DNA of 20,168 nucleotides from a virus. The notes below the pieces were generated by a model. It saw only the letters and a program-made list of their open reading frames with translations, made no database searches and was not told where the DNA came from. The stretch is taken from positions 1 to 20,168 of IMG/VR virus record IMGVR_UViG_3300017779_000233, one strand, 5' to 3'. Both the position numbers and the translations under genes were made by a program. This document shows positions 4,068 through 19,769 of this stretch, one piece after another (the stretch's first letter is position 1; each line of letters begins with the position of its first letter).

Positions 4068-4468
4068 TACCTATTTGGCGTTACGTCTTCGTTTACGGTA
4101 AACGTCCCAAAAAAGAATGTTTCGGTAGTGGAGTTGGTGTTGTGATTTGCAGCAATGTCGTAAATGTACGTTCCAGGGGCTATGTTCTGCATGGCCTCCC
4201 TTGATGCGGAAACGGTAAGAGTACCATCTCCTGCTCCAGTCACAGACGCCAAAAGCTTGTTTCTACCCCCAACAGCGGTAGATAGAACTACATCGGCCCT
4301 GCTGTTTGGATTTGTGCTCGTCCTTACGTCCATGTCAAAACTGTAAACAGTAAGATCAACTGCAGATCCAGCTGTATCCTTGACGGTAATGTCAAAGCTG
4401 AGACTGTCGCCGCGCTTGACGACAACATTGATTTCTTCTGAAGTGTCTAGGTTAAGTTCTGTTGCCAT
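4067..4468 (-). CDS. Beta-sandwich virion protein, 133 aa
   Basis: Starts MATELNLDTSEEINVVVKRGDSLSF at ATG 4468, overlapping the portal 3' end by 17 nt in another frame. The pattern of an Ig-like or baseplate N-terminal domain is visible: VVVKRGDSLSFDITVKD, then VDLTVYSFDMDVRTS, then GTLTVSASREAMQNIAPGTYIYDI, then FFFGTFTVNEDVTP. Similar domains form the N-terminal connection module of phage fibres and upper baseplate proteins. Overlaps on both sides put it in one operon with portal and the fibre-like gene, so it may attach that fibre to the virion. This is inferred from pattern and context. Confidence 0.65.
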   Translation of the reverse strand: MATELNLDTSEEINVVVKRGDSLSFDITVKDTAGSAVDLTVYSFDMDVRTSTNPNSRADVVLSTAVGGRNKLLASVTGAGDGTLTVSASREAMQNIAPGTYIYDIAANHNTNSTTETFFFGTFTVNEDVTPNR

Positions 4469-6905
4469 CCTGGGTAAGGTTTCTAATTATCTCTTTTGTA
4501 TTGTCTTGTGCAAGTTCTCCTCGCCGATCTTTTCTCTGGCTCATGAGCTTAGACTGGGCCACGGCCTGCTTGTCTACCCTTTCATCCTTTCTGTCCTCCT
4601 TAAGGACCTCAATCTTTTGCTTAAACTCCTGATCATCAGTTTTAAATCCAAGTGTAGCCTGAGCCTTAATCATCTCAATCTCCTTCTTAAACTCGTGTAG
4701 GGCTTGAGCAACCTGAATGTCAGCTTGAGCCTTAGCCTGAATCTTTTGCATCTCAATCTGTGACTCCATCTGAAGCTCCTGTTGCCTAGACTGAGAGGCT
4801 TGTTGAGCGGCCTGTTGTGCCTGCTGAGCCTGCATCTGAGAGTTCTGTTGAGACATCTGCATCTGTCTTTGCTGCTTCTTGGTGCGCCTAAGAGACAAAA
4901 GTCTTTCCGCCTGCTCTACATCCTTAAGCTCCCTGACAGCCATTGCGTCTTCAAGATCAATAGCCTGCTGCTGAAGCGACATCTGAATAGACTGCTCAAG
5001 GAACTGTCTTTCTCTGTCGTCCATATTTTTGGTGACGGTGACCCCGAAGTTAAACATAGGGAGGTTTTCAAAAGAAGAAAGAACACCCATATTTGACTTT
5101 CCGACCGCGTTAGAGTACGCTTCAAAAATAACAGACTCTTTTGGCAACACCTGAAGGCATTTTACAATGTCTTCGCACACACTCTGAAACAAAACAACAG
5201 AGGCATTTGTGATGTCGTAAATAGCGTTATTTCCTGCGGCAATAGCCTGCTCTCGAACGCCAACCAAAGCATCACCCTTAGGGGTAGATGCGTCCATGGC
5301 CTCGTTAACACCCGTAACATCCCTGATCATTCGCATGTAGTGATTGTACAGGTTAATCAGCTCATTGATGTTTCGGATGCTGTTTCCGATTTCTCTAATC
5401 GGTGGGTTTTGAAATCCTCCCTCTGGGTTCTTGCTTCTGTAATAGAAGACACCAGTCTGTTCGTAGATGTCGTGCAACTCTAGTGGCTGGAGCTCTCCGC
5501 CCTTGCCTAGCTGTACATTTTCCAGCCCCTCAATATCAATGATCAACCCGTCTGGCTTTGCTTTAGCAATGGCCTGTTGAATTTTGAGGTGAGTAAGCTG
5601 AAGCATGTCAGCAAATCCCTTCGTGCTTCCGATCATTGACTTCGGAACCATGTCGTCAAGGTTCGTCGCAACAGCGGAGTAAGACATCCGCGTTCTGCTG
5701 AGGTCGTGCATGTTGCGGGGCATGTTAGTCTTGATGCCGTAATCAAAAAGATAACCGCATCCCATCACATAAATACCACCGTACACATTTGTAATCTCAA
5801 GGCAGTGGGGCTTTCTTTCGTATACGCCACCCTTTCTTTCCTTGTAGTTGTATCCTTTTACGTAAAAGCCAACGTTTCCAAACTTGTTTTCTTTTTCCTC
5901 AAAGTACATTTTGTCCGTAGACAAAAACTCGAAGTCGAGGATTTCAACAATGTACTCGTCGTACCCATAAACCGTTCTTCTGGCCTGATTGTCGTAATGC
6001 GTTCTTCTAAGTGAAGATGAATCATTGCCGTATTTGGATGCAGACTTTTCTGCAATTTTTTCAATCTGCTCCTCTGTAAGCTTTTCCCCAGCAAGCCTCT
6101 TAAGTTCCGAAATGGATATTCTTCTAACAGCACCAGCGTAGCTTATGTCGCCGAAGTTTGGGTCTTCTGTGTAGCTGTGAACAAAGTCCTTGGGGTCGAT
6201 GTAGTCAATGGAAATCCCGTATGACGGATCGTTCAATCTTTTTACAACACACATGCCACAGGAAACCAGGTCTCCAACGGCCCTTCTAAATGTTGTTTCG
6301 TTGAACTTATTCCAAGTAAGCGTAGCCTGTGTTGCAAGCTGAGCCGCAACCTCCGCGTCAAGCTTTACGTTTGTCCCGAGAAAAATTTCAGCCTCTTCCA
6401 GGGTTTCTGGAATGCTGTCTGGATCTTCGTTGACAACGATTCCGTGGGCTTTTTTGAGATCTACGAGAAGCTGCCTGTTCTTAACAAGCATCTCAATCTT
6501 CTTTTTTTCCTTGTCCCTAAAAGATGTAGAAAGAGGGTCGACGGCCTCTACGTTTGGGTACATGTCCCTAGAGAGAACCTTATTTGTAACAATTCTAGCA
6601 AACTTAGGCAGAACTGGAACGGGACTAAAGTCCATGTTCAACAGGGTTCCGTCGTTGTTGTTCGGGTCTAGATTGTTTAGAAGTCTTTTGTAAATATCGA
6701 CATCCTGCGTACCGTTAGCGTACTTTCTGTTTCTGTGAAACTCCCTATTTCTCCTATTGATGGCAGAGTCGTCTGGAGAAGATCCATTCCACTGCGCCTC
6801 TATCGCTTTTGCGTAGGCCATCCCATACTCCTGAACAAGCTTTTCTTCTTGCGACGCTAGGGGGTTGGGAAAGGACTTGGACGCTTTAGTTGAGCTGCCG
6901 TACAT
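4452..6905 (-). CDS. Portal protein, 817 aa
   Basis: Forms the dodecameric DNA channel at the head vertex. The ATG at 6905 (MYGSSTKASKSF) is chosen because the only longer form would need a TTG inside the promoter region. The first ~600 residues are a mixed alpha/beta portal body (for example DFSPVPVLPKFARIVTNKVLS, YFEEKENKFGNVGFYVKGYNY, and DVTGVNEAMDASTPKG, a typical portal helix segment near INELINLYNHYMRMIRD). From about 660 to the end is a long Gln/Lys/Glu-rich coiled coil (RQMQMSQQNSQMQAQQAQQ onwards), the expected place of the barrel. Large portals of this size directly downstream of terminase are typical of crAss-like phages. Transcription probably starts from the TATATTTG box just upstream. 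Confidence 0.9.
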   Translation of the reverse strand: MYGSSTKASKSFPNPLASQEEKLVQEYGMAYAKAIEAQWNGSSPDDSAINRRNREFHRNRKYANGTQDVDIYKRLLNNLDPNNNDGTLLNMDFSPVPVLPKFARIVTNKVLSRDMYPNVEAVDPLSTSFRDKEKKKIEMLVKNRQLLVDLKKAHGIVVNEDPDSIPETLEEAEIFLGTNVKLDAEVAAQLATQATLTWNKFNETTFRRAVGDLVSCGMCVVKRLNDPSYGISIDYIDPKDFVHSYTEDPNFGDISYAGAVRRISISELKRLAGEKLTEEQIEKIAEKSASKYGNDSSSLRRTHYDNQARRTVYGYDEYIVEILDFEFLSTDKMYFEEKENKFGNVGFYVKGYNYKERKGGVYERKPHCLEITNVYGGIYVMGCGYLFDYGIKTNMPRNMHDLSRTRMSYSAVATNLDDMVPKSMIGSTKGFADMLQLTHLKIQQAIAKAKPDGLIIDIEGLENVQLGKGGELQPLELHDIYEQTGVFYYRSKNPEGGFQNPPIREIGNSIRNINELINLYNHYMRMIRDVTGVNEAMDASTPKGDALVGVREQAIAAGNNAIYDITNASVVLFQSVCEDIVKCLQVLPKESVIFEAYSNAVGKSNMGVLSSFENLPMFNFGVTVTKNMDDRERQFLEQSIQMSLQQQAIDLEDAMAVRELKDVEQAERLLSLRRTKKQQRQMQMSQQNSQMQAQQAQQAAQQASQSRQQELQMESQIEMQKIQAKAQADIQVAQALHEFKKEIEMIKAQATLGFKTDDQEFKQKIEVLKEDRKDERVDKQAVAQSKLMSQRKDRRGELAQDNTKEIIRNLTQDGNRT

Positions 6906-6926
6906 CTTTGTGGGTATACATTTTTG

Positions 6927-6934
6927 CAAATATA
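6927..6934 (-). promoter_or_regulatory. TATATTTG box upstream of portal
   Basis: Minus-strand TATATTTG in the 47-base gap between terminase stop and portal ATG. It is followed by CAAAAATG, whose ATG is out of frame with portal. It matches the Bacteroidota TAnnTTTG -7 element and would give a leader of about 15 nt. No convincing -33 TTG is seen upstream. Confidence 0.5.
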
Positions 6935-6952: not shown

Positions 6953-9061
6953 TTAATTATGCTTATACCTTCTGAAAAACTTAGACTCCTTAAAATCAGA
7001 CACTTTCTTTTTTGACTTAACCTTTTGAGCAGCAAGCAGACAAAGCCCAGAGCTAATCGTCAGGTCAAACTTGGTTCTGTTGTCAATTTTGTATCCAATC
7101 CAGTCCTCTAGGGTTCTGTTAAAATACATCTTTCCAATTTCACCAGTTTCGTGATTCGCGCCCACGTGGTCATGCACGTATGCCTCAATAGCATGAGCAT
7201 GAGCTTGAATGACATCTTGAGAGTTGGAAGGAATTCCCTTTGTCTTTACGTTCACCTTCGCAGAGGTAGACATTAGGTGTCTGGGTCTGTCCATAAGGTA
7301 CCCATCGTAACCCCTTGATTCAAAGTATCTTGCGATGCCATACTTGTTGTTTTCTATGAGTATTGGATACCCATAAAACACGGCAGCCTTTAACACATCC
7401 TCGTAAAAGATTTTAGCCAAAGGTGGACGGGACGCATACTCCAGCACGAACATGTTCGATGGATGCTCCATGTGAAACTTATTGTACAGGTGTAGCGCTC
7501 CTTTCGACCCCCGTCCGTCGACGGTGGCGTCAAGGTCGTAGGAGTCAACCCCGCCTACCCCCAGCTCTGCATTGGGTGCAACGCGCTTGTTTCGTAAAAA
7601 CTTCTTTTGATTTCTCACCTCTGGAGGAGGCATCCAAGCAACATGAAATCTACCGTTCGGATCTGGAGCAAATACAACCTCTGTATCTTTCTCTCCGTTC
7701 TTCCAAACGAAATTTCCGACGACGACAGGATTTGGAAACAACTCGTCGTTGTACTGGACTTGCTCGTAAATTTTACCGACATTAAAAAGGCTCCCTTCAA
7801 TACTATCCCTAAATGCCTCGTCTGTGGTAAAGGGAAACTGCCTGACAATTTCATTCATCTCAGAGGCATCATGCTTCAGAGCCTCTCTTTCATTTTTGAG
7901 ATAAGTACGGGCTCCGAGCTCAACATCTACACCATCAATGCCCTCAACAGGAGATTCAGGGTCTTCGTGTACGGCCCTCCCGTGCTTATCAAAAAAGCCC
8001 TCCAGCGCCATATCAGCGGGAATAAAGAGTCGGTAGAGTCCTGATCTAGTCCTCCCATTCTTGTTCCTTTCGTCTGGGTCTGAATCCCTCCAAAGGTCTT
8101 TGTACTCTTTTCCTCCTTTGTCCATCGGATTGACGGTGCTTCCCACCATTGCTTTTCCGACGATTTTTCGCCCGACGATCAAACAAGTCCGTTGAATCCT
8201 CCAGGCGTCCCTTATGTCTGTAGGTCTTTCCCATTTACCAGCTTCGTCCAGATAGAGCAAATGTAGCTTTTCTCCATCATAGGCGTTGTTGGTAGTGTTC
8301 TTCCAGTTTATGACCGTATTAAGAGCCTCGCCCGTCTGCGTAGTCTTATTGTTCTTCGTGATTCTCTTAGACGGCTCGCGAAAAGCCAGCTCCATGCGCG
8401 GATTGGTCGTTCCATCCTGAATAGGTTTGAAGAAGAAGGGGTAGTGCCTGAACATCTGCACGACCTTCTTCATGAATATATTCTCTTGGGCGTCCTTACC
8501 AGTCTTTGACTGTATCCCCAAGAGCTTGTCTTTGACTTGTGTGGCTTCGTCTAGAAGCACAGCAGAGCAGATATTGGTATATCCACTCCGCCTACATTTA
8601 GTATACAGCTGCCCGATACATCGGGGGTCCGCCTCACACGCAGACAAATGTACGAAAATTTCTCTTTGAAACTCTAAGTAGTCTGGATACCCGATATCCA
8701 TTCGGGTCCATTGAAGCATCATGTAATGCCTGCCCGTAATATATGTAGGGACACCGTCGTTATAGAACCAAAAGCCTTCACGCCGACGGCGAAACTCCTC
8801 CTCGACATACGGACGAAACTTTTCTCTAAAGGGCCTGGGCATCTCGGCCCACTCATCCATACTCTTAATCCGAAGCATTTCCTCAGGCATAGGAACCCTT
8901 TCCCACAGCTGCAGGTGGTTTGGCTTTCCATATCCCGCAATTTTCGTTTTGGGAGGCTGAGCGGGAAGTGCAATGTCCAGCCCACCGATTCGAACAATTT
9001 CTCCTTTCGTACCGTTGGGGCAAATTGCGACAAAGTCCTCAACATCAGTAGACTTGGCCAT
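6953..9061 (-). CDS. terL: Terminase large subunit, 702 aa
   Basis: The ATP-driven DNA packaging motor and headful/termini nuclease. N-terminal region: GFWFYNDGVPTYITGRHYMMLQW (about 96-118), a conserved segment in this terminase group. ATPase: a degenerate Walker A at YTKCRRSGYTN (153-163), where Arg-Ser replaces the usual Gly-Lys; Walker B LHLLYLDEAG (266-275, Asp272 Glu273); coupling motif GSTVN (307-311). Nuclease: GGVDSYDLD (503-511), ILIENN (567-572) and an acidic residue in FDLTISSGL near 676 give the RNase H-type Asp/Glu/Asp set. The start overlaps the preceding 61-aa gene by 17 nt. The terminase-then-portal order and the length fit crAss-like or related Bacteroidota phages. No obvious small terminase is adjacent. 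Confidence 0.95.
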   Translation of the reverse strand: MAKSTDVEDFVAICPNGTKGEIVRIGGLDIALPAQPPKTKIAGYGKPNHLQLWERVPMPEEMLRIKSMDEWAEMPRPFREKFRPYVEEEFRRRREGFWFYNDGVPTYITGRHYMMLQWTRMDIGYPDYLEFQREIFVHLSACEADPRCIGQLYTKCRRSGYTNICSAVLLDEATQVKDKLLGIQSKTGKDAQENIFMKKVVQMFRHYPFFFKPIQDGTTNPRMELAFREPSKRITKNNKTTQTGEALNTVINWKNTTNNAYDGEKLHLLYLDEAGKWERPTDIRDAWRIQRTCLIVGRKIVGKAMVGSTVNPMDKGGKEYKDLWRDSDPDERNKNGRTRSGLYRLFIPADMALEGFFDKHGRAVHEDPESPVEGIDGVDVELGARTYLKNEREALKHDASEMNEIVRQFPFTTDEAFRDSIEGSLFNVGKIYEQVQYNDELFPNPVVVGNFVWKNGEKDTEVVFAPDPNGRFHVAWMPPPEVRNQKKFLRNKRVAPNAELGVGGVDSYDLDATVDGRGSKGALHLYNKFHMEHPSNMFVLEYASRPPLAKIFYEDVLKAAVFYGYPILIENNKYGIARYFESRGYDGYLMDRPRHLMSTSAKVNVKTKGIPSNSQDVIQAHAHAIEAYVHDHVGANHETGEIGKMYFNRTLEDWIGYKIDNRTKFDLTISSGLCLLAAQKVKSKKKVSDFKESKFFRRYKHN

Positions 9062-9250: not shown

Positions 9251-9324
9251 TACGCCTGACAGGATTCGAACCTGTGACCGTCTGCTTAGAAGGCAGATGC
9301 TCTATCCAACTGAGCTACAGGCGC
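9251..9324 (-). tRNA. tRNA-Arg (anticodon UCU)
   Basis: Canonical cloverleaf on the minus strand. Acceptor GCGCCTG pairs with CAGGCGT (one G-T pair), followed by an A discriminator. D-arm is GCTCAGTTGGATAGAGC. Anticodon loop CTTCTAA carries TCT at 9290-9288. T-arm is CAGGTTCGAATCCTG. CCA is not encoded. It reads AGA codons, which the Arg-rich late proteins use. It lies between two short late genes. Confidence 0.95.
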
Positions 9325-13516: not shown

Positions 13517-13996
13517 TCAGAGAGCCTTAAACATTACTTCGTAGTAAACCTTTCCCTCATCGTCACGACAAGCTTTGAGGCACCGACCACGATTAACGCC
13601 ATCATGCACATAACTGACGTGAACCCAATCAGGATTGTCTGAATCGCCAAATTCCCACACCATCTGATCAAACTTAACATTCTCTTGTATCCACTCGAAG
13701 ATTTGAGAGTTTGTACACTTTCCGTATACGTCTGCATCAAGGTCGAGTGCTCTCCCTTCCATGTGTTGACTACGAAGCGAACCGCCGATAGCACGGTTGA
13801 GCTCAGGGCCACGATAGCCTGACGACACGTATATAGGGCACCCGAAAGCCTCCCTAAGAGGTTGAAATACATGTTCTGCAATCGCCTTGAGATTTTGGAT
13901 GACCCATTCATCGTCTGGAGTGTTATTGATTCCCAACCTTGAAGCGGTAGTGCTTTTTGTGCACTCCTTAAGTGTCAGGTTCTTAGATAGTTGCAT
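13517..13996 (-). CDS. M15-family peptidase endolysin, 159 aa
   Basis: Cleaves peptide bonds in host peptidoglycan at lysis. The ATG at 13996 (MQLSKNLTLKECTKSTTASRLG) is the standard start of this family; a GTG 36 nt upstream is less likely. Typical M15 features are IYVSSGYRGPELNRAIGG (56-72), the zinc site SQHMEGRALDLD (76-87: His78 and Asp85) and WVHVSY (124-129: His126). Length is normal for the Peptidase_M15_3 type found in Bacteroidota phages. There is no signal peptide, so a holin or membrane partner would be needed. A TAAATTTG box at 14081-14074 may drive it separately, since a terminator lies upstream of it. Confidence 0.9.
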   Translation of the reverse strand: MQLSKNLTLKECTKSTTASRLGINNTPDDEWVIQNLKAIAEHVFQPLREAFGCPIYVSSGYRGPELNRAIGGSLRSQHMEGRALDLDADVYGKCTNSQIFEWIQENVKFDQMVWEFGDSDNPDWVHVSYVHDGVNRGRCLKACRDDEGKVYYEVMFKAL

Positions 13997-14073
13997 GTCG
14001 ATTAACGAATTTTTACAGTCAAAAACTTGCACGGAATTGGTTTTTCTCCGTACAATGAGATCAGCAAGCAGCT

Positions 14074-17576: not shown

Positions 17577-17839
17577 CCGATTATTTCCTTTATATCCTCC
17601 AACAGTAATGAGGCCATTTTTGTCTTGATCACAATAACATCGCGAAGTTATAAAACAATTTTTTAAAAGTCAACCGTCAAGTGACTGTTCATGTAACGTC
17701 GCTTACGGTATTGATAATGAGTTAGTTATATTATTTGACCTGTCTCAAGGCAAATTAAGGACTGAATTAAGATCCGTCGAAAAAAGGGATGAGATATGTA
17801 CACCGTGGGGATTATATACATACACAGCCACCCGCAAAC

Positions 17840-18175
17840 GCAATCCGAAACGGATTGCCACGACCTCCCCCCTGCACTTTAGTGCAGTTTTTGCTACAAC
17901 TTTCAGCTTTTTGCCTGACTTTCAGTCAGTTAGCCTTGGTTAGTTCAAGCACAGCTTGAGACTAACTTTGCAGGCGCAGTGCTCCGAAGGAGAGGACAAT
18001 CCCCCCTGTAACTCAAGGAGTTACAAACATGACCCCACTACTGGGGCTTCACTGAACACCCTTTCAAGGTCTTGACCTTGACTTGATTTGAGTTGGCAGT
18101 CCCTTCACGCAGTACCCTACGAGTCAACAAGTTGACCCTGCGGTACCTCGACCTTTACTCTAACTCGTTAGAGTA
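17840..18175 (+). repeat. Array of ten unrelated short hairpins in non-coding DNA
   Basis: Hairpins, arm-loop-arm: 17840 GCAATCCG-AAA-CGGATTGC; 17872 CTGCAC-TTTA-GTGCAG; 17915 CTGACT-TTC-AGTCAG; 17939-17966 a 12-bp stem with one bulge (GTTAGT TCAAGC-ACA-GCTTGA); 17982 CTCC-GAA-GGAG; 18007 TGTAACTC-AAG-GAGTTACA; 18033 CCCCA-CTAC-TGGGG; 18064 TCAAGGT-CTTG-ACCTTGA; 18123 GTCAAC-AA-GTTGAC inside CGCAG/CTGCG; 18156 TACTCTAA-CTCG-TTAGAGTA. The spacing is about 25-57 bases. Arm sequences differ from each other; only the architecture repeats. Confidence 0.85.
17872..17892 (+). terminator. Hairpin plus T-tract, possible terminator
   Basis: CTGCAC-TTTA-GTGCAG followed at once by TTTTTG. It has the form of a weak intrinsic terminator on the plus strand, but it is also one member of the hairpin array and no plus-strand gene ends before it. 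Confidence 0.3.
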
Positions 18176-18191
18176 CTTCGGCAGAAAAGTA

Positions 18192-18245
18192 GAGATATGT
18201 ATTAGAATGAAAGAAACCTATGGTTTCATTCTAATACATTATCTC
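18192..18245 (+). promoter_or_regulatory. Long leader hairpin before the 169-aa gene
   Basis: GAGATA pairs with TATCTC (18240-18245). TGTATTAGAATGAAA (18198-18212) pairs perfectly with 18224-18238, and an inner AAACC/GGTTT offers an alternative top. About 21 bp in total with one bulge. The ATG follows 7 nt later at 18253. It would form a strong 5' leader structure on the message. Confidence 0.8.
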
Positions 18246-18252
18246 ATAAACC

Positions 18253-18762
18253 ATGACAAACTTCCAATTTTCCGACTGCAAGAAAGCGGTCAACCAAGCC
18301 CTCTTCCGTCCAACCGCAGACCGCAAGGCCGCCGCAATCAAAGCTTTGCAAGAAGCTTTGGAGTTGGTCACTAACCTCGAAGAGGTTAAAGACAAGCCGA
18401 AGGCTTCCAAGACGAAGAAGCGTCGTCGTAAGACGACGAAGAGGACACCTTCACAGAAGGTGGCAGACCGCCAAGAGATGGCCAACAAGACCAACGAAGT
18501 TGGTCCAGTCAAGCCTTCGAAGAAGGCTAAGACAGCTTCCGTTAAGGAAGCTAAGGCATCTCTGAAAGAGATGGATGCCAAGAACAAGGCGAAGAAGCAA
18601 TCGAAGATTGAAGCCAAGAAGGTAGCTATGGGGGTCAACGAAGTTGACAGAGTAGCTTCCTTGGAAGCTAAGATTGAGGCCTTGACGCAGTGCTTGGCCA
18701 TGCACATGGAGACTACGTCTCTCCCTTCTGCTATCGAAGATAGCAATAATGTCCCCTTCTAA
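18253..18762 (+). CDS. Lys/Ala-rich basic protein, 169 aa, encoded by hairpin-filled sequence
   Basis: ATG at 18253 (MTNFQFSDCKKAVNQALF) with no Shine-Dalgarno, 7 nt after a 21-bp hairpin. Residues 1-46 look helical (RKAAAIKALQEALELVTNLEEV). Residues 47-125 are Lys/Ala/Thr/Ser-rich with KTKKRRRKTTKRTPSQK, resembling histone H1-like tails. Residues 130-155 form a short coiled coil (VDRVASLEAKIEALTQCLAM). No enzyme motif is present. DNA or RNA binding is likely from charge. The coding sequence contains about 14 short hairpins in different reading frames, so part of the amino-acid composition may be dictated by nucleic-acid structure. It is the first gene of the rightward block, probably early. 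Confidence 0.75.
   Translation: MTNFQFSDCKKAVNQALFRPTADRKAAAIKALQEALELVTNLEEVKDKPKASKTKKRRRKTTKRTPSQKVADRQEMANKTNEVGPVKPSKKAKTASVKEAKASLKEMDAKNKAKKQSKIEAKKVAMGVNEVDRVASLEAKIEALTQCLAMHMETTSLPSAIEDSNNVPF
18339..18745 (+). repeat. Array of about 14 short hairpins inside a coding sequence
   Basis: Arm-loop-arm: 18339 CAAAGCTT-6nt-AAGCTTTG; 18372 TAACCTC-GAA-GAGGTTA; 18394 AAGCC-GAA-GGCTT; 18421 CGTCGTC-GTAA-GACGACG; 18446 CACCTTC-ACA-GAAGGTG; 18489 GACCAAC-GAA-GTTGGTC; 18512 AGCCTTC-GAA-GAAGGCT; 18534 AGCTTCC-GTTAA-GGAAGCT; 18557 CATCTCT-GAA-AGAGATG; 18598 CAATC-GAA-GATTG; 18634 GTCAAC-GAA-GTTGAC; 18653 TAGCTTC-CTTG-GAAGCTA; 18709 GAGAC-TAC-GTCTC; 18729 TGCTATC-GAA-GATAGCA. All are perfect. GAA loops are closed by C-G in seven of eight. 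The loops fall in two different codon phases. Confidence 0.9.
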
Positions 18763-18773
18763 TCGTTCTAGTA

Positions 18774-18821
18774 TCTCTTACTACACACTCTCTTCATTTA
18801 TGAAGAGTGTGTAGTTAGAGA
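18774..18821 (+). promoter_or_regulatory. Long leader hairpin before the 46-aa gene
   Basis: TCTCT/AGAGA, a T-T mismatch, then ACTACACAC (18780-18788) with GTGTGTAGT (18807-18815), a 2-nt TC bulge, TCTTCA/TGAAGA and a TTTA loop. About 20 bp. It begins 11 nt after the preceding stop, so it could act as terminator-like 3' end protection, leader, or both. No T tract follows. Confidence 0.8.
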
Positions 18822-18839
18822 GACTTACCACTCAAAATT

Positions 18840-18850
18840 TCAAACTTCAA
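18840..18850 (+). promoter_or_regulatory. TCAAACTTCAA leader element, copy 1
   Basis: The 11-mer ends 11 nt before the ATG at 18862. Identical copies stand 10 and 11 nt before the ATGs at 19083 and 19797, and a copy with one change stands before 20048. No Shine-Dalgarno is present at these genes, so the element may serve start-site choice or promoter function. Confidence 0.6.
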
Positions 18851-18861
18851 ACCCCAACCAC

Positions 18862-19002
18862 ATGGATAAGCACATCCGCCGTCAGCTCATCGCTGACCTC
18901 ATCGACAGCCATCTCGGCATGGACCTCATCACCTGCACTTCAGCGTGGGACGACCTCACCTGCGACGAGCAGATGACCTTGGCTGACCTCATCGACAGCT
19001 AA
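18862..19002 (+). CDS. Small acidic protein with repeated ADLIDS, 46 aa
   Basis: ATG at 18862 (MDKHIRRQLIADLIDSHLG) to TAA at 19002. It is Leu/Asp-rich and helical, with two Cys and the hexapeptide ADLIDS both at residues 11-16 and at the extreme C-terminus, so the two ends are alike. It has its own hairpin leader and TCAAACTTCAA element, which supports it as a real gene. The family is not recognised. Very short acidic early proteins of phages often bind and inhibit host enzymes, but nothing here shows a target. Confidence 0.65.
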   Translation: MDKHIRRQLIADLIDSHLGMDLITCTSAWDDLTCDEQMTLADLIDS

Positions 19003-19010
19003 GCTGTACA

Positions 19011-19072: not shown

Positions 19073-19082
19073 TTCATCTACG

Positions 19083-19448
19083 ATGACAAAACTTCAAGAA
19101 CTATACTTCACCATCCAAGGGTGGGACGGCTTCAGCGTGAAGCACGACCTGACCGAATACGGAGGCGGTGGCTACGCTGTGGGCGGAGCGTCCAAGTGCT
19201 TTGAAATCAAAGCCGACGACCTCTCATGGAACCACTTCGCCTACACCATCATGCCCAGCTTGCAAGAGCAGACACGAGGCAAAGCGGCAAACCTCCTCAT
19301 TGGAGGATGGGTCGATGACGACGGAATGGCCTACATCGAACTCTCTGACATCGTGCAGGACCGCAGGCAGGCGATCGAGTTGGGTGAGGAGCGCGAAGAG
19401 AAAGCCATCTACGACCTTTGGAACAACGAAGAAATCAAACTAAAATGA
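19083..19448 (+). CDS. Hypothetical protein, 121 aa, downstream of hammerhead
   Basis: ATG at 19083 (MTKLQELYFTIQGWDGFSVKHDL). A GTG 30 nt upstream is rejected because it lies within the ribozyme. It is a mixed alpha/beta soluble protein with a Gly-rich loop (TEYGGGGYAVGGASK), ANLLIGGWVDDDGMAYIELSDIV and an acidic C-terminal helix (LGEEREEKAIYDLW). It ends in an ATGA overlap with the next gene. No family is recognised. Production of its message presumably depends on the self-cleaved leader. Confidence 0.75.
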   Translation: MTKLQELYFTIQGWDGFSVKHDLTEYGGGGYAVGGASKCFEIKADDLSWNHFAYTIMPSLQEQTRGKAANLLIGGWVDDDGMAYIELSDIVQDRRQAIELGEEREEKAIYDLWNNEEIKLK

Positions 19449-19709: not shown

Positions 19710-19769
19710 GAGAGTTACGTATATATACTCTCTGAACAGAGTGAAGAGAGTATATATACTTAACCTCTC
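19710..19769 (+). promoter_or_regulatory. Long leader hairpin before the 83-aa gene
   Basis: GTATATATACTCTCT (19719-19733) pairs perfectly with 19745-19759. Outside it, GAGAGTTA (19710-19717) pairs with TAAC(C)TCTC (19761-19769) around a C-T mismatch and a bulged C. About 23 bp in total. The top can refold as CTCTG-AA-CAGAG (19730-19741), so two conformations compete. Confidence 0.85.

Follow-up and report, generated by a model that had tools for sequence, protein, structure and literature searches.

Gene layout and features of the hairpin tract

We analysed a 20,168-nt virus record (IMG/VR IMGVR_UViG_3300017779_000233), referred to here at its full length as the window. Its minus strand carries the structural genes (portal, 4452–6929; terminase, 6953–9061; endolysin, 13517–14032), and a tRNA gene on the same strand (9251–9324) lies beside the terminase-side genes. 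Genes on the opposite strand start at 18253. A tract of small hairpins fills a 400-nt leader and the first of these genes, fading over about 2 kb. The features are given below, with loops in parentheses, stems of relatives as 5′ arm/3′ arm, and loop phases counted from the ATG at 18253.

17778–17820, plus strand: conserved start element, cGAAAAAA..gg.gAG..at.t..A.cgtGGGGATTATATA, 29 aligned loci; sharp 5′ edge of the hairpin tract
17840–18239: non-coding leader with ten perfect hairpins (5–8 bp stems, 3–4-nt loops) starting at 17840, 17872, 17915, 17945, 18007, 18033, 18064, 18123, 18156 and 18213
18112–18146: composite hairpin, outer helix GTACC/GGTAC enclosing the hairpin at 18123–18136
18197–18239: 16-bp inverted repeat enclosing the last leader hairpin (18213)
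18253–18762, plus strand: lysine-rich ORF of 169 aa, carrying the coding part of the tract
18339–18360: hairpin CAAAGCTT(TGCAAG)AAGCTTTG
18372–18388: hairpin TAACCTC(GAA)GAGGTTA, loop phase 0; relatives CAACCTC/GAGGTTG, TAATCTC/GAGATTA
18394–18406: hairpin AAGCC(GAA)GGCTT, loop phase 2
18422–18439: hairpin TCGTCGT(AAG)ACGACGA or, in the other register, CGTCGTC(GTAA)GACGACG
18446–18462: hairpin CACCTTC(ACA)GAAGGTG
18489–18505: hairpin GACCAAC(GAA)GTTGGTC, loop phase 0
18512–18528: hairpin AGCCTTC(GAA)GAAGGCT, loop phase 2; loops of relatives TTC, AAA, CAA, TCC
18534–18552: hairpin AGCTTCC(GTTAA)GGAAGCT
18557–18573: hairpin CATCTCT(GAA)AGAGATG, loop phase 2, closed by T-A
18598–18610: hairpin CAATC(GAA)GATTG, loop phase 2
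18634–18648: hairpin GTCAAC(GAA)GTTGAC, loop phase 0; relatives GTCAGT/ACTGAC, GTCAGC/GCTGAC
18653–18670: hairpin TAGCTTC(CTTG)GAAGCTA; relatives TGGCTTC/GAAGCCA, TTGCTTC/GAAGCAA, TGTCTTC/GAAGACA, TGTCCTC/GAGGACA
18709–18721: hairpin GAGAC(TAC)GTCTC; relatives GAGTC/GACTC, GAATC/GATTC
18729–18745: hairpin TGCTATC(GAA)GATAGCA, loop phase 0; relatives TGCTAAC/GTTAGCA
18769–18825: intergenic 22-bp inverted repeat containing hairpins 18769–18783 and 18790–18807; the tract thins downstream

The 169-aa protein showed no Pfam or PHROG family, and no homologue of its gene was found among cellular genomes in a genome collection. Its AlphaFold model consisted of helices only (pTM 0.28) and had no PDB match. 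The protein and its homologues (L034–L056) usually end in an acidic PF tail (DELPF, DVPF), which resembles the tip of single-strand binding protein. Two more residues (PFEL) are present in some members, and one distant group is without the tail. A relative of 64.7 kb has a separate ORF of 102 residues with a GDDLPF end.

Inverted repeats of 16–22 bp stand directly ahead of ORFs at 18197–18239, 18770–18825 and 19714–19764, and the motif CTTCAAACTTCAAA is repeated at 18838, 19773 and 20030, near early-gene starts. At several early genes (19074–19086 and 18995–19007; L103 and L197), start codons lie within hairpins of the form TTCATC(TAC)GATGAA and stop codons lie within loops, for example ACAGC(TAA)GCTGT.

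Start element and extent of the tract

The consensus of the start element over the 29 loci can also be written cgaaAAAa..gg.gAG..at.t..A.cgtGGGGATTATATatat. It contains the anchor GGGGATTATA, which has a single copy in the window and a single copy in the 64.7-kb relative. The core GTGGGGATTATATA (17805–17818) occurs once per genome, and the tract begins 34 nt downstream. Heading the early gene block, this element of about 43 bp is a candidate promoter or replication origin. The Bacteroidetes promoter consensus TTG-N19-TANNTTTG was not found above chance across the window. Matches to the 14-mer GTGGGGATTATATA in viral contigs were mostly due to chance; the array was present with those in L157, L159, L165, L169 and L197, the last being a distant relative. 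In L145, five hairpins follow a match to GTGGGGATTATATA in an unrelated context.

When 28 loci were aligned on GGGGATTATA, hairpin density was about 0.04 per 100 nt upstream and 1.7 in the first 100 nt, then about 2.4 at 600–800 nt, 1.1 at 1 kb and 0.4 at 1.8 kb, and it was back to background by about 2.3 kb. The original prediction, which had placed the hairpins at 18372–18745, was correct and understated: these coordinates cover only part of a feature that begins near 17840 and reaches at least 18825. Across 18000–19000, hairpins with stems of 5 bp or more number 12 per 500 nt, compared with 0–7 elsewhere in the window.

Only the hairpin at 17872–17887 has a T run (TTTTT) after it, and the array does not consist of intrinsic terminators. 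This second leader hairpin with its TTTTT (17872–17892) is found in the window and close relatives, and given the T run, a role in intrinsic termination or attenuation is conceivable. The sequence GACAATC (17995–18004), outside the hairpins, is kept in the leader of nearly all relatives. A long-range pairing of the leader (GGGGATT/AATCCCC) was predicted in two groups and absent from a third, and we make no claim for it.

Hairpin excess over shuffled sequences

The gene at 18253–18762 contains 10 hairpins (stems of at least 6 bp, loops of 3–5 nt), whereas 2000 synonymous-codon shuffles gave 1.09 on average and never more than 6. GAA loops numbered 6 in the gene versus 0.15 in the synonymous shuffles, and the leader had 8 hairpins versus 0.30 in dinucleotide shuffles. 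An excess over synonymous shuffles was also seen in at least 16 further ORFs of relatives. The same kind of shuffle test showed no hairpin excess in the terminase, portal, primase-helicase and other genes of these phages.

The eight coding GAA loops start exactly where they had been placed, four in phase 0 relative to the ATG (18379, 18496, 18640 and 18736) and four in phase 2 (18399, 18519, 18564 and 18603). Seven of the eight are closed by C-G, as "mostly" had implied, the exception being the T-A pair at 18564. The GAA loop announced upstream was found near 17981–17991 as CTCC(GAA)GGAG, with a stem of merely 4 bp, and the CTTG loop lies at 18660. The predicted GTAA loop exists at 18422–18439 in one of two equal registers, the alternative loop being AAG. 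A repeated peptide, already dismissed on account of the loop phases, is ruled out by these phases together with the synonymous shuffles. A repeat family copied around the region was likewise rejected, as stem sequences differ from site to site.

Distribution among relatives

The array was found in all 31 IMG/VR loci encoding a relative of the 169-aa gene (31/31), and in three longer contigs it was the sole such cluster. The two ends of the 64.7-kb relative overlap by about 80 nt, indicating that this is nearly a closed genome. In the divergent loci L103 and L197, the array crosses three consecutive ORFs of 144/153 aa, about 60 aa and 188/209 aa. The third ORF has a C-terminal basic region resembling that of the window gene, and the first two are unrelated to the window gene. 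In L103, hairpin counts for the three ORFs are 11, 5 and 8 (shuffle means 1.2, 0.5 and 0.9); in L197, the first ORF has 12 and the third has 7 (shuffle means 2.0 and 0.7). Therefore, no single protein accounts for the tract. These marine bacterial viruses form a family in which a 1–2 kb tract of dozens of tiny perfect hairpins lies behind one fixed site and crosses whatever genes are there.

Cultured relatives by terminase are Elemovirus and Cellulophaga, Maribacter and Tenacibaculum phages, with at most 40% identity, and an uncultured Manatee Spring record shows 48% terminase identity. Among the terminase relatives examined, the hairpin cluster was absent from elemoA, MW202828, Panino, phi18:3, phi38:1 and Gundel_1. 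The more distant, crAss-like phi14:2 had a maximum of 5 hairpins per 600 nt, compared with 6–18 in the arrays. In MW202828 (43745–45900; L020), GTGTCG(TTAA)CGACAC is found between genes of the early region in seven or more copies and may be a phage operator or promoter repeat. The cultured relatives, together with a weak match of a nearby gene to a T9SS-type sorting domain (E 0.0027), suggest a host among the Bacteroidota.

Covariation of the stems

Orthologous hairpins in the gene showed paired substitutions, such as TGCTATC/GATAGCA to TGCTAAC/GTTAGCA. Among 23 sequences, 55 of 172 pair columns had double substitutions, compared with 10–37 when partners were slid. In retained hairpins, distinct interior pairs were compensated in 57 cases and broken by a single change in 13, the broken-pair counts being small. 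The outer helix of the composite leader hairpin also covaries among relatives (GTACC/GGTAC, ATACC/GGTAT, GTAGTC/GACTAC and GCTAAC/GTTAGC). Compensatory substitutions thus exceed the controls, as in a conserved secondary structure, and the paired substitutions and the excess of compensated pairs show that evolution keeps the structure of the hairpins rather than their sequence.

Stem, loop and folding properties

The G-U tolerance expected of functional RNA helices was not seen in the tract. Its stem interruptions were G-T in 6 cases, A-C in 11 and other in 43, compared with 63, 0 and 15, respectively, in 91 tRNAs of related phages (p about 2e-17; p-values are nominal, and the sequences compared are related). 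Terminator-like hairpins, with small counts, had 8 G-T, 3 A-C and 3 other interruptions, and the chance rate for G-T in background hairpins was 86/471; these wobble control sets are modest in size. Escherichia coli rRNA was rejected as a wobble control for having too few hairpins of such shape, and the tRNAs were used instead.

Loop identity was far from random. Lengths of 3–4 nt account for 93% of loops in the tract and 43% of those in the background. The DNA mini-hairpin rules invoked by the original prediction fit the data, as C-(GNA or complement)-G accounts for 29/72 gene triloops and 27/101 leader triloops versus 11/261 in the background. Closing pairs were C-G rather than G-C in ratios of 84:6 and 77:1 (background 110:93). 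Tetraloops with Y..R ends were strongly enriched, and as a terminal pyrimidine and purine can pair, two-base loops would remain. UUCG and GNRA loops are rare, and triloops and two-base-like CTTG/TTTA loops dominate. The proposed dominance of GAA holds in the coding part, where GNA exceeds TNC (35 vs 12); on the plus strand of the leader the order is reversed (TNC 28 vs GNA 12; nominal p 0.017), so that the dominance of GAA is confined to the coding part.

RNA folding gave z-scores of −5.7 for the leader and −6.4 for the gene. With DNA parameters the fold of the gene was at least as extreme (z −7.7), and the minus strand folded as well as the plus strand. In phage N4, a C-G closing pair and a 5′G...A3′ loop let such small hairpins extrude at physiological supercoiling, and SSB melts the hairpin on the other strand and leaves the C-G closed, G..A-loop one (PMC4496689).

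Interpretation of the tract

The lack of G-T tolerance, the short loops, the mini-hairpin rules for loops and closing pairs and the equal folding of both strands favour selection on DNA structure, single-stranded or extruded, with a structured early RNA as a close rival. We give nearly an even chance to the reading in which the tract is an element of DNA structure with its anchor at a single fixed start site. More tentatively, and at somewhat below even chances, we propose a new kind of element in dsDNA phages, namely a tract of DNA mini-hairpins on the kilobase scale that has a single fixed start, does not depend on the encoded proteins, is selected for pairing of the DNA in coding as well as non-coding sequence and forms an origin or early-entry zone. 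In such an element, the start element, as promoter or origin, would open the early gene block. Behind it, 1–2 kb of underwound or single-stranded DNA might snap into a row of perfect hairpins of 5–9 bp with loops of 3–4 nt. Acting as DNA, these hairpins might keep the stretch open and accessible to proteins of replication or early transcription, so that it is not fully coated or re-annealed. The product of the first gene, with its basic stretch and, in most members, its acidic PF tail, may work at the tract.

Several observations count against the DNA reading. Like a transcript, the tract follows closely on a promoter-like element and is in sense orientation with the early genes. The nested outer helices of the leader form only in a single strand, a state more typical of RNA, and the strand bias of the leader loops counts against a symmetric cruciform. 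In addition, many loops (TAT, AAA, CTT) are not GNA. It is quite possible, if short of an even chance, that selection acts on RNA, with local hairpins armouring the leader of the early transcript and the first 1 kb of mRNA against ribonucleases, Rho or RNA-targeting defence, or shaping translation, and fading with distance from the transcript start. The sense orientation and sharp onset, the strong RNA folding, the covarying outer helices and conserved linkers of the leader, the one-strand bias of its loops and the start and stop codons inside hairpins of several genes all agree with such an RNA. It would, however, have to lack the G-U pairs tolerated in tRNA and terminator helices and to make little use of UUCG and GNRA loops, and it would leave the equal folding of the minus strand and the extreme DNA-parameter fold of the gene to be explained.

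We regard it as unlikely that the hairpins are a mutational by-product with little function of their own, formed as template switching during replication corrects near-palindromes to perfect ones in an often single-stranded stretch. Such correction would yield Watson-Crick stems free of G-T and double changes in one step. However, the hairpins of the 31 loci have persisted at identical codon positions, with the protein retained, copying alone would not give loop rules or a closing-pair bias, and the single-stranded state would still need a cause. A binding array for an RNA- or DNA-binding protein, similar to a CsrB-type sponge, would account for many hairpins with a restricted loop set, but is very unlikely because the loops are not one motif and vary at orthologous sites.

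Least probable of all, and hardly tenable, is the suggestion of the original prediction that these are N4-like hairpin promoters read by a virion RNA polymerase: stem and loop size, C-G closure and the G..A loops of part of the hairpins fit the N4 extrusion rule, but the stems have no sequence in common, the 20–35 hairpins are far too many against the three early promoters of N4, and the 64.7-kb relative, a nearly closed genome, yielded no such polymerase. Pfam, PHROGs and PDB-sequence searches and direct searches with N4 and phi14:2 gave no T7/N4-like or crAss-like match in this genome, within the reach of methods that very remote homologues might escape. With N4 mini-vRNAP and the phi14:2 RNA polymerase as queries, tblastn gave no match below E 0.17 and phmmer found nothing. 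PF00940 had no match in this relative and equally none in 14 control genomes, which provided no positive control, so that this result alone says little. The giant virion protein of the relative (2801 aa; L033, 3615–12020) has a C-terminal LPD38 polyvalent-protein domain (Pfam) and matches PHROGs of unknown function, with no PDB sequence match, and its other large virion proteins showed no polymerase match. Judged by position, giant proteins occur at the equivalent place in Elemovirus and MW202828.

Comparison with known systems

Over 1–2 kb beside one fixed site, selection for hairpins takes precedence over codon choice in several ORFs, including two that are unrelated to the window gene. Whether it acts as DNA or RNA, a tract of this kind is not known from tailed phages, and the retention of the hairpins is not explained by any known system; we found no comparable phage hairpin array in open-licence papers. 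If it acts as DNA, it would be a natural setting in which to study how small cruciforms extrude and how single-stranded DNA serves as a landing zone in vivo, on a scale well past that of the three promoters of N4. If it acts as RNA, it would represent an early mRNA armoured with unusual density and could point to host defences that target RNA. Members of the clade are frequent in marine metagenomes and therefore reachable for study.

Elemovirus and other flavobacterial podoviruses share homologous terminase and portal genes and a similar gene order with these phages, but are without the hairpin cluster. The large ornate phage RNAs GOLLD and ROOL, non-coding RNAs near tRNA arrays (PMC12286853), are likewise conserved structures, several hundred bases long, that phages encode. 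They have Rfam models, whereas the tract has no Rfam match, enters ORFs and has stems without wobble pairs. At gathering score, Rfam covariance models matched only the tRNA at 9251–9324 in the window, by which a known RNA family (including GOLLD and ROOL) is rejected. Structured RNA elements overlap coding sequence in RNA viruses, where covarying hairpins are kept in ORFs regardless of codon phase, as they are here. Unlike these, the tract belongs to a dsDNA phage and has one fixed start, a polar fade and strict Watson-Crick stems.

The early promoters of phage N4 resemble the tract in their stems of 5–7 bp, 3-nt loops, C-G closure, G..A loops in part and position at the start of the early genes. 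Stems in the tract are 5–9 bp and about two thirds of its loops are of 3 nt; C-G closure with a 5′G...A3′ loop is enriched on one strand or the other, in only 27/101 and 29/72 triloops. N4 has three supercoil-extruded promoters with stem bases conserved among all of them and a virion RNA polymerase, whereas the tract has 20–35 hairpins with freely differing, unrelated stems, running through coding sequence, and no such polymerase was found in the 64.7-kb relative. As extrusion of the N4 promoters obeys this loop rule too, the N4 idea survives as an analogy and not as membership, and by that analogy the tract may possibly work physically as the N4 hairpins do.
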